A DNA stretch of 64,000 nucleotides, taken from assembly GCA_021204865.1 (NCBI GenBank), contig JAJPYQ010000032.1, positions 12,048-76,047 of the forward strand. The letters are read 5' to 3'. The notes under the pieces are model-generated. The model saw nothing but the letters and a program-made list of their open reading frames with translations, did not search any database and was not told the origin of the DNA. Source of the stretch: Prevotellaceae bacterium (GTDB lineage: Bacteria; Bacteroidota; Bacteroidia; Bacteroidales; Bacteroidaceae). This document shows positions 44,277 through 59,913 of this stretch, one piece after another; within the stretch, counting starts at the first letter, position 1; the number at the start of each line of letters is the position of its first letter. A program made the position numbers and the translations under genes.

Positions 44277-44576
44277 ATGAGGATTATATCACACAGAAGA
44301 CTGCGTGAATACTATGAGGCGGAAGGACACGAGGACGCACGTGTGGCTTTGGAGCGATGGTACGAGATAGCCGAGAATGCCGAATGGAAAAGCCTGTCGG
44401 ACATAAAAGTTGACTTCCGCTCCACGGATTATGCCGGTAACCAGCACTATGTTTTTAACATTAGAGGTAATCGCTATCGCCTGGTCGTAGTCATCAAGTT
44501 TGTTATGGGGAGTATATACGTGCGATGGGTCGGCACACATAAAGAATATGACAAGATAGATTGTTCAACGATATAA
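44277..44576 (+). CDS. higB: HigB-type toxin (RelE superfamily)
   Basis: NQHYVFNIRGNRYRLVVVIKF; followed by XRE antitoxin. Confidence 0.9.
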   Translation: MRIISHRRLREYYEAEGHEDARVALERWYEIAENAEWKSLSDIKVDFRSTDYAGNQHYVFNIRGNRYRLVVVIKFVMGSIYVRWVGTHKEYDKIDCSTI

Positions 44577-44588
44577 GAGCATGAAGTT

Positions 44589-44951
44589 ATGGAAGAGATC
44601 TCTAAAGAACAGTATGAGTATGCGGAGGCAAGGATTGAGGAGCTTCTGCCTCTGGTGGATGACAACACCCCGGCTGACGACAGGAATGCGGTTGAGCTGT
44701 CAATAGTCTCTGACATTGTGGTGGCGTACGAGAAGAAGCACTACCCCATCGCAAAGCCCACCGTTGCTGAACTGATAGAGCTTTCCCTTGAGGAAAAGGG
44801 AATGACACAAAGACAACTCGCCTCAGAGATTGGGGTAAGCCCTTCACGTGTGAACGACTATGTGGCTGGTCGCTCGGAGCCCACCCTGAAGATAGCAAGG
44901 CTACTGTGCCGGGTACTCGGCATCCAGCCGACATTGATGCTCGGAATGTGA
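44589..44951 (+). CDS. higA: HigA-type antitoxin, XRE HTH
   Basis: MTQRQLASEIGVSPSRVNDYVAGRSEPTL. Confidence 0.9.
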   Translation: MEEISKEQYEYAEARIEELLPLVDDNTPADDRNAVELSIVSDIVVAYEKKHYPIAKPTVAELIELSLEEKGMTQRQLASEIGVSPSRVNDYVAGRSEPTLKIARLLCRVLGIQPTLMLGM

Positions 44952-45005: not shown

Positions 45006-45137
45006 AATCCGGGCAACGGTCACCACCCCCAAACACATACCTACCAACCCCTATATATAAGGGGTTGGTAGGTATATGTTTGAGGGGTGTATGTACCCGT
45101 ATTGCCAAGATTATTTGTATGACATTATATATAATGA
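45006..45137. repeat. ~130-bp direct repeat, copy 1
   Basis: Nearly identical to 56526-56657. Confidence 0.95.
45021..45090. repeat. Hairpin repeat H1 (~70-bp palindrome, TATATA loop)
   Basis: accccCAAACAcATACCTACCAACCCCTatatatAAGGGGTTGGTAGGTATatgTTTGaggggt. Confidence 0.95.
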
Positions 45138-45149
45138 GAGTAGCACCTG

Positions 45150-45202
45150 AAAGACCACCTACCTAACCGGAGCATATAGGGAATGGTTGGTAGGTAGTCT
45201 TA
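45150..45202. repeat. Hairpin repeat H2
   Basis: aagaccacctacctaaccggagcatatagggaatggttggtaggtagtctta. Confidence 0.85.
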
Positions 45203-45219
45203 GTTCCTATGGCTGCCAT

Positions 45220-45271
45220 CAAACACCACCCACCATACCTTAGTATATATAGGCAGGTTGGTGGGTGTTTC
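45220..45271. repeat. Hairpin repeat H3
   Basis: aaacaccacccaccataccttagtatatataggcaggttggtgggtgttt. Confidence 0.88.
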
Positions 45272-45326: not shown

Positions 45327-45334
45327 TATCTTTG
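45327..45334 (+). promoter_or_regulatory. Candidate -7 box (TATCTTTG) of the structured RNA, copy 1
   Basis: Same position relative to the RNA as TACCTTCG at 59707-59714 (minus) and 63973-63980. Confidence 0.6.
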
Positions 45335-45336
45335 CG

Positions 45337-45577
45337 ACACAAACCGTAAACCAAACCGATATGTAAAGACCAAGAGTAGGACACTTAGATAAAGCGTTAG
45401 CTTACGTTCTTGTCTTCTGTAAATAGCCAGTTTACGAGGCAGTCAAGGGTTTAAGCCGATGCTCACGCGGAACGCGTGGGCTTTTACTCGTATATGACTG
45501 CAATGGTTTTGGCTATACCTCAGAAGACGTAGACGAAGAATCGGTCCACGTTTTTTTGTTGCCCAAGCTCCAGGCCA
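45337..45577 (+). ncRNA. Candidate ~210-240 nt structured RNA/leader, copy 1
   Basis: Near-identical inverted copy at 59465-59707; stems 45412-45419/45521-45528, 45423-45428/45511-45516, 45439-45445/45495-45501, 45461-45469/45473-45481; terminator hairpin plus T7 at 45527-45557. Confidence 0.65.
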
Positions 45578-45607: not shown

Positions 45608-46099
45608 GTGACAAGGAAATCATTAGTATTAGCATTGATGGCAGCTATGCTTCTGCTCGCCACCCCCGCCTTCGCCCAGAAACCCATCCAGAAACCGCAG
45701 AAGCCACAGAAGACAACCACCACAACTGCCCCAAGCAGACCTGCCGCCCCAAAACCTCCGAAGGTAAATGCCCAGTCGTCCGACAGCCCCGTTTCCGAGC
45801 TGGACGAGCTGAGAAGGGCTGCCGAGCAAGGAGATGCCGATGCCCAAACCAACCTGGGTTTTCGCTATTACAACGGAGACGGCGTGACACAAAGCTACAC
45901 AGAGGCAGTCAAGTGGTGGAGGAAGGCTGCCGAGCAGGGTAACGCTGACGCTCAATACAATCTGGGATGTTGCTATGCCAATGGAGAAGGTGTTGCCCAA
46001 AGCGATGAGGAGGCATTAAAGTGGTTTCGCAAGGCTGCTATACAAGGGGACGCTGCCGCGATAAAAATTCTGGAGGAGTTGGGTGAAACAGCCAACTAA
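45608..46099 (+). CDS. Exported Sel1-repeat protein
   Basis: Signal peptide, K/P/T-rich linker, Sel1 repeats (GDADAQTNLGFRYYNGDGVTQSYTEAVKWWRKAAEQG). Confidence 0.92.
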   Translation: MTRKSLVLALMAAMLLLATPAFAQKPIQKPQKPQKTTTTTAPSRPAAPKPPKVNAQSSDSPVSELDELRRAAEQGDADAQTNLGFRYYNGDGVTQSYTEAVKWWRKAAEQGNADAQYNLGCCYANGEGVAQSDEEALKWFRKAAIQGDAAAIKILEELGETAN

Positions 46100-59464: not shown

Positions 59465-59707
59465 TGGCCTGGAGCTTGGGCAACAAAAAACGTGGACCGA
59501 TTCTTCGTCTACGTCTTCTGAGGTATAGCCAAAACCATTGCAGTCATATACGAGTAAAAGCCCACGCGTTCCGCGTGAGCATCGGCTTAAACCCTTGACT
59601 GCCTCGTAAACTGGCTATTTACAGAAGACAAGAACGTAAGCTAACGCTTTATCTAAGTGTCCTACTCTTGGTCTTTACATATCGGTGCGGTTTACGGTTT
59701 GTGTCGC
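59465..59707 (-). ncRNA. Candidate structured RNA/leader, copy 2 (inverted)
   Basis: Near-identical reverse complement of 45337-45577; upstream TACCTTCG at 59707-59714 (minus). Confidence 0.65.
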
Positions 59708-59769: not shown

Positions 59770-59820
59770 GAAACACCCACCTGTCCTGGGCATATAGGGA
59801 ATGGTATGGTGGGTGGTCTT
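59770..59820. repeat. Hairpin repeat H8
   Basis: aaacacccacctgtcctgggcatatagggaatggtatggtgggtggtctt. Confidence 0.82.
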
Positions 59821-59841
59821 TCGTGGCGGGGAGGGGCATAA

Positions 59842-59893
59842 GAAAACACCTACCAACCTCTCCGTATAGGCGGGGGGATTGGTAGGTGGTTTT
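59842..59893. repeat. Hairpin repeat H9
   Basis: aaaacacctaccaacctctccgtataggcggggggattggtaggtggtttt. Confidence 0.85.
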
Positions 59894-59913
59894 AGAGAGT
59901 AAGCTCAGAGGGC

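Follow-up and report, generated by a model that had tools for sequence, protein, structure and literature searches.

A family of pseudoknotted leader RNAs in Bacteroidota with shared pairing strands ahead of exported-looking genes: a candidate transcription attenuator

Our computational analysis of a stretch of Prevotellaceae DNA (the window, which means the whole 64-kb stretch) and of its relatives reveals a family of leader RNAs with conserved helices and pseudoknots, strands shared between alternative pairings, a minimal 5' ORF with a frame bias, a promoter box, a U-tract and a gene in the same orientation behind it. We lean towards the reading that this RNA acts in cis as an attenuation leader that gates the transcription of the following gene. 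The copy studied here lies at 45327-45557 on the plus strand of the window. A preliminary description of this locus had proposed a long rod, and all of the pairings that it named could be located, including that of ATAGCC (45423-45428) with GGCTAT (45511-45516), the core of P2. The two bases that it had assigned to both the outer stem and the terminator are the AC at 45527-45528, and the 31 bp that it gave as the distance to the Sel1 gene separate its own end at 45577 from the GTG at 45608. The segment 45405-45535 has a minimum free energy of -53.8 kcal/mol (z = -5.7), and none of 200 shuffles was equally stable. The sole ARAGORN call in the window is a tRNA-His at 1516-1590, i.e. the leader carries no tRNA or tmRNA call. 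The parts of the locus are as follows.

45327-45334, plus strand: -7 box TAnnTTTG of the Bacteroidota primary sigma, TATCTTTG (direct reading)
45361-45366, plus strand: putative 5' minimal ORF, start-stop ATG TAA (ATG-stop frame bias in the family)
45379-45384, plus strand: (G/A)GACA(T/C) segment ahead of the first hairpin (nearly invariant in genus alignment A1)
45392-45403, plus strand: P0 hairpin AAGC-GTTA-GCTT (98.9% of cells paired in A3, few double changes)
45407-45412, plus strand: PK1 5' strand TTCTTG, partner 45444-45449 (permutation z = -7.6, scan -6.9)
45412-45419, plus strand: P1 5' strand GTCTTCTG, partner CAGAAGAC at 45521-45528 (95.4% of cells paired, double changes at every pair)
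45423-45429, plus strand: P2 5' strand ATAGCCA, partner 45510-45516 (92.9% paired, double changes at 8 of 8 pairs)
45439-45445, plus strand: P3 5' strand GCAGTCA, partner TGACTGC at 45495-45501 (96.5% paired, double changes at 6 of 6 pairs)
45444-45449, plus strand: PK1 3' strand CAAGGG (same evidence as the PK1 5' strand)
45461-45481, plus strand: P5 apical hairpin GCTCACGCG-GAA-CGCGTGGGC, proposed switch strands 1 and 2 (-15.4 kcal/mol; 96.4% paired in the family, some double change at 9 of 9 pairs)
45495-45528, plus strand: 3' strands of P3 (45495-45501), P2 (45510-45516) and P1 (45521-45528) (covariation, direct reading)
45528-45550, plus strand: weak local hairpin CGTAGAC...GTCCACG, ACGTAGAC...GTCCACGT (-4.0 kcal/mol; A.C mismatch, retained in most genus copies)
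45543-45550, plus strand: strand 3, before the U-tract, GGTCCACG (partners: the P5 3' strand at 45474-45480 in PK2 or, in many members, downstream strand 4 in P6)
45551-45557, plus strand: U-tract T7, abutting strand 3 (direct reading)
45608-46099, plus strand: Sel1-repeat gene, GTG start 50 nt past the U-tract (PF08238, E = 5e-26; signal peptide read from the sequence)
59484-59705, minus strand: second leader copy, 99% identical, ATGTAA at 59675-59680, before a small membrane-protein ORF (genome DNA search)

Covariation among homologues, to which the preliminary description had looked for support of its rod, was found at both depths of comparison. In the genus alignment (41 sequences), 92% of the cells were paired and 187 cells carried double changes, compared with 55 after shuffling. 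The phylum alignment A3 (95 distinct rows) had 93% of its cells paired, double changes at 47 of its 49 pairs, and 900 double-change cells against 257 after shuffling and at most 187 in controls with a slid partner. Since the phylum alignment was fitted to the model, pairings outside the model were tested as well, by permuting raw sequence windows among members. This supported PK1, which joins the strand before P1 to the strand after P3 (z = -7.6), PK2, which joins the P5 3' strand to strand 3 ahead of the U-tract (z = -12.7), and P6, which joins strand 3 to strand 4 further downstream (z = -6.5); these permutations ignore relatedness, but the eight control pairings carry the same relatedness and all stayed at |z| < 1.6. 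An unbiased scan of 136 window pairs (median z -0.06) placed the modelled helices on top, with P1 at -27.6, P3/P4 at -20.7, P2 at -15.6 and PK1 at -6.9, and gave -5.9 for PK2, -4.0 for P5 and -3.6 for P6.

The 3' strand of P2 is flanked by GG(U/C)...(A/G)CC in all 99 members (window 45505-45519). These flanks covary as well, with U-A in 88, C-G in 7 and U-G in 4 of the 99 and C-A in none, and their pairing is hard to reconcile with a full P2 at the same time. This covariation suggests a further alternative hairpin that would compete with P2. Two other candidate helices were rejected. Relatives keep the ATG-stop spacing of the mini-ORF but not the palindrome GCCTATGTAGCATAGC that surrounds it, and the overall closing helix AAAAAGCG/CGCUUUUU, which RNAalifold drew for the genus copies, is lost outside Bacteroidales and unsupported in the pair scan.

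Several strands of the leader serve more than one partner. The 3' strand of P5 (strand 2) pairs with strand 1 in P5 and with strand 3 in PK2, both pairings being maintained by compensation, and strand 3 is in turn shared between PK2 and P6. Eleven members have a diverged P5 3' strand, and in each of them this strand pairs over 7-11 bp with the member's own strand 3 while P5 is retained; against the consensus strand 3, the same 11 strands reach just 4-7 bp. The covariation of PK2 rests on about a dozen such diverged members, as the strands of P5 and PK2 are otherwise highly conserved. Across 99 sequences, the median energies were -16.3 kcal/mol for P5, -14.8 for PK2 and -4.8 for the local hairpin, and P5 and PK2 differed by no more than 4 kcal/mol in 78 of them. 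For the window copy the corresponding values are -15.4, up to -14.1 and -4.0 kcal/mol, and here GTCCACG pairs more strongly with the apical strand CGTGGGC, in PK2, than within the local hairpin. The intrinsic terminator of the preliminary description holds up as far as its U-tract is concerned, but the local hairpin proposed with it is probably not the main helix: it contributes about -4 kcal/mol, and PK2 outweighs it beside the U-tract in 98 of the 99 sequences. P6 is weak or absent in several copies, including the window copy at 45327-45557 and its twin at 59484-59705.

The promoter-like sequence and the U-tract (TAnnTTTG at 45327-45334 and T7 at 45551-45557), which the preliminary description had regarded as the element's own, are both enriched in the family. 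Of 207 members, 145 have TAnnTTTG in the 110 nt upstream, but downstream of the element it occurs in only 16 of 200, while control stretches gave 13/189 and 12/169, i.e. a background of 7-8%. Between the RNA and the gene, a scan of family members for the same box found it at background level only. In 159 of 211 members, 6 or more of the 8 U-tract positions are T, against 2 of 211 at the control position.

The leaders also carry a minimal ORF. ATG followed by 0-2 codons and a stop was found in 92 of 138 leaders, compared with 33.4 +/- 4.8 in dinucleotide shuffles. An in-frame stop within 3 codons follows 106 of 158 ATGs, compared with 24 and 35 for the other two frames, and the nearest stop trinucleotide lies 0, 3, 6 or 9 nt past the ATG in 113 of 149 cases; the frame bias is unchanged when each locus contributes one leader. 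Where promoter box and mini-ORF are both present, the ATG lies at a median of 26 nt past the box and 36 nt ahead of P0. The commonest forms are ATGTAA, ATGTAG, ATGACATAA and ATGGCATAA, and ATGAACAGATAA and ATGATATAA occur as well; because the sequences vary in this way, it is the frame that is kept, and not a single fixed motif. No sign of an amino-acid-sensing leader peptide emerged from the mini-ORFs, which have too few codons for any enrichment. While a start-stop ORF is unable to sense an amino acid, it might serve as a readout of ribosome loading or termination, or make the 5' end more stable.

The preliminary description had treated the element as a single locus. This view does not hold, as a DNA search found 17 copies in the source genome at 71-100% identity, and the covariance model recovers the same 17. 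Aligned, these copies share one order: TAnnTTTG, a short ATG-stop, GGACAT, AAGC-GTTA-GCTT, TTCTTG, the rod, CGTAGACGAAG..GTCCACG-TTTTTTT, and a gene 50-80 nt further on. Model R1, built from 41 genus-level sequences, had matches in 104 of the 295 genomes sampled from the order and in 28 of the 299 in a phylum-wide sample. Model R2, built from 99 sequences, matched 39 of the 299 phylum genomes and 35 of the 37 genomes sampled in the genus. Copy numbers in these large samples are lower bounds, as 8-9 candidates were scored per genome. Carriers include Prevotella disiens, Hoylesella buccalis, Paraprevotella clara, Bacteroides muris, Alistipes muris, Dysgonomonas, Sunxiuqinia and Pedobacter. The leader is also present on a contig labelled as a Sulfurospirillaceae MAG (L172), probably a mis-binned Bacteroidota contig. 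The twin copies in the window are 99% identical and precede different genes, with flanking similarity that fades, which indicates that the promoter-leader module does duplicate. Searches of phage and plasmid collections for the leader family gave no match.

In line with the preliminary description, which had called the RNA unannotated, no Rfam family matches the element. Rfam 15 gave the tRNA as its sole match in the window; with the E-value limit relaxed to 10, no credible hit on the element emerged, Bacteroidales-1 and 6S included, and no hit to a riboswitch. Among 20 relatives there was no match at gathering scores. Matches to microRNA families at 45020-45090 and at positions 738-824 of locus L061 were far below gathering scores and were dismissed as artefacts of perfect hairpins. 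Like Flavo-1 (RF01705), Bacteroidales-1 (RF01693) and 6S-Flavo (RF01685), the leader is a structured RNA of Bacteroidota, but none of these three scores on any element (Weinberg 2010, PMC2864571). The literature searched, with the supplements that hold candidate lists outside the comparison, yielded no description of the leader RNA. Many uncharacterised structured RNAs of Bacteroidota are listed by Fremin & Bhatt (2021; PMC8040213) and in PMC9723704, the latter with 64 structured 5' regions. Two human-microbiome candidates of the former, HMP2_4205 (132 bp, Bacteroidetes, near TPR genes) and HMP2_1032, resemble the leader by their descriptions in taxa, palindromic character and terminator-like call, and may cover part of it. 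Compared at the level of these descriptions, the candidates are presented as palindromic or as terminators and not as a pseudoknotted leader with a mini-ORF. Hence, a partial overlap of the leader with candidates on the two lists is possible.

The genes behind the leader share their orientation with it, and in 79 of 180 members they start 50-69 nt past the U-tract. By a simple heuristic based on hydrophobicity and a lipobox, 139 of these 180 genes (77%) look exported, compared with 158 of 591 other ORFs in the same loci (27%). Their Pfam domains include TonB plug/CarbopepD_reg_2 (SusC-like), BspA-type LRR, BACON, WG repeat, OMP barrel and Sel1, among others, and show no shared enzymatic pathway. 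The Flavobacteria-like members differ from this pattern: they lie about 180-380 nt or more ahead of susC-like genes, are without a mini-ORF and are found beside a divergent HTH gene, and may work by a different mechanism. In seven of them (L084, L085, L088, L092, L094, L108 and L111), a second conserved hairpin, GGCCCTCTA...CCAAACTAG...TAGAGGACC, directly precedes the susC-like start codon.

Some further features of these loci were observed. The second window copy (59484-59705, minus strand) and the copy of locus L010 (G000:C29) precede the same type of small membrane protein (MWFWVVVIIAVIGG...), and at both loci Sel1-repeat genes follow about 2 kb further on, so that these are paralogous sets of leader-led genes. 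A pair of a HigB-like toxin (PF09907) and an HTH antitoxin (PF01381) occupies 44277-44951 of the window, just 5' of the leader. Near-perfect palindromes of the type ACCTACCAACCCC-TATATATA-GGGGTTGGTAGG and ACCACCCACC...GGTGGGTG occur at 45027-45085, at 45151-45262 and on the minus strand at 59780-59900, and hence recur ahead of both window copies, a repetition that is unusual. They are probably strong terminators of the preceding genes.

The attenuation reading accounts for the order of promoter, RNA, U-tract and gene, for the sharing of strands and for the energy balance between them. It had been offered in the preliminary description as one option, an attenuator for the gene behind, and the promoter-RNA-U-tract-gene order and the shared strands appear to support it. 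Features expected of a cis-acting leader are found in its position between promoter and gene in the same orientation and in its covarying conserved structure. As judged from sequence, PK2 would provide the GC-rich helix that leads straight into the U-tract, and P5 the mutually exclusive antiterminator pairing. We infer transcription of the leader, its termination, the direction of switching and the trigger as follows. Transcription would begin at the TAnnTTTG promoter and produce in turn the minimal ORF, P0 and a pseudoknotted domain (PK1, P1-P4) that bears P5. Strands 1-2 (P5), 2-3 (PK2) and 3-4 (P6) would then be alternative pairings, with the U-tract placed after strand 3. In the ON state, P5 would retain strand 2, so that strand 3 forms no GC-rich helix at the U-tract and the polymerase reads through; P6, if present, would later sequester strand 3. 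In the OFF state, strand 3 would capture strand 2, and the GC-rich helix of PK2, possibly assisted by the weak local hairpin, would abut the U-tract and stop transcription. The balance between P5 and PK2 might be tipped by a ligand or protein that binds the PK1/P1-P4 domain, or by ribosomes at the mini-ORF. Some features speak against attenuation. The strands of PK2 enclose a long structured loop, which is not the layout of an ordinary intrinsic terminator, and the local hairpin has little stability. Moreover, P6 is missing or weak in several copies, that of the window among them, the covariation of PK2 comes from few members, and the Flavobacteria-like members deviate in position and in the mini-ORF.

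An alternative explanation might be that the leader acts in cis on translation or mRNA stability. The pseudoknotted domain and a ribosome on the start-stop ORF would then expose or hide the start region, and the U-rich stretch would be a landing site for a ribosome or protein. This would suit the fairly fixed distance between U-tract and gene start, the fact that P6 can form only after read-through, and the frame periodicity of the mini-ORF, which points to ribosomes at the 5' end. However, the 136-pair scan found no compensatory pairing of the start region to leader segments apart from a weak signal between neighbours, and the U-tract follows a GC-rich strand without a gap, as it does in terminators; we consider this explanation possible but unlikely. 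A free small RNA that acts in trans and ends at the U-tract, with the adjacent gene fed by leakage only, appears improbable to us. Although its own promoter, compact fold and U-tract would fit, as would the lack of a promoter between RNA and gene, which means that some leakage must feed the gene, such an RNA would not explain why the gene start is kept at 50-70 nt in the same orientation, nor the excess of exported-looking products. It is also at odds with the many near-redundant copies per genome and with strand 4, which lies downstream of the U-tract and would be absent from the terminated product. The Bacteroidota sRNA suggested in the preliminary description could at most arise as a by-product when transcription terminates at the U-tract.

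The many copies, with the 99% identical pair before different genes and its fading flanks, would also be expected of a selfish palindromic repeat, MITE- or REP-like, whose folding is incidental. Yet compensatory evolution extends across the phylum, the promoter, mini-ORF, U-tract and strand 4 are strand-specific, orientation and distance to the genes are constant, and the phage and plasmid searches gave no match, which makes this origin very improbable. The idea of a 6S-like regulator, likewise raised in the preliminary description, draws on the long rod with internal loops, and we regard a polymerase-binding RNA of this kind as scarcely credible. Neither the window nor 20 relatives gave a match to 6S or 6S-Flavo in Rfam near the element, even at lax thresholds; a direct 6S-Flavo search of the source genome was silent, but so were its controls, which leaves it without weight here. 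Furthermore, 17 copies in one genome that always lead into genes at a fixed place, with no promoter between RNA and gene, are not what one expects of 6S RNA, conserved pseudoknots and switch strands are foreign to it, and B. thetaiotaomicron owns a separate 6S RNA (PMC7366714).

If the leader is an attenuator, it resembles the trp type in its chain of strands 1-2-3-4, with exclusive neighbouring pairings before a gene, a U-tract and a short 5' ORF. It differs in that its ORF usually has 0-3 codons after the ATG and cannot read an amino acid, that the U-tract follows strand 3 and not strand 4, and that strands 2 and 3 pair as a pseudoknot which spans a structured domain. The compact, conserved pseudoknotted domain with an apparent expression platform is reminiscent of the preQ1, SAM-II and c-di-GMP-II riboswitches. 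Like the leader family, c-di-GMP riboswitches occur in many copies upstream of diverse genes. In contrast to known pseudoknotted riboswitches, the leader has no sequence or covariance match in Rfam, and its exported-protein gene set suggests no metabolite. The succession of a short 5' ORF, a long stable rod, an unstructured U-rich stretch and a main ORF also recalls ribosome shunt leaders of the cauliflower mosaic virus type, although shunting of this type is a eukaryotic viral mechanism. Possibly, the family is a phylum-wide switch that senses ribosome initiation and termination: the contentless start-stop ORF would load a ribosome onto the leader's 5' end and, via the pseudoknotted domain or a bacterial shunting-like bypass of the rod, set the expression of exported-protein genes. 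We regard this proposal as speculative and rather unlikely, and the exported-protein regulon might equally be linked to a ligand or protein.

Our results describe a large, strongly covarying, many-copy candidate regulatory RNA without an Rfam entry in a dominant gut phylum. Its carriers include cultured strains (Prevotella disiens, Hoylesella buccalis, Paraprevotella clara, Bacteroides muris, Alistipes muris and Pedobacter), which makes it directly testable. The in-frame start-stop mini-ORF would offer a rare and countable example of an ORF that is under selection although it has hardly any codons, and one RNA switch would control a regulon of exported and surface proteins that comprises BspA-type LRR and Sel1 proteins, lipoproteins and SusC-like receptors.
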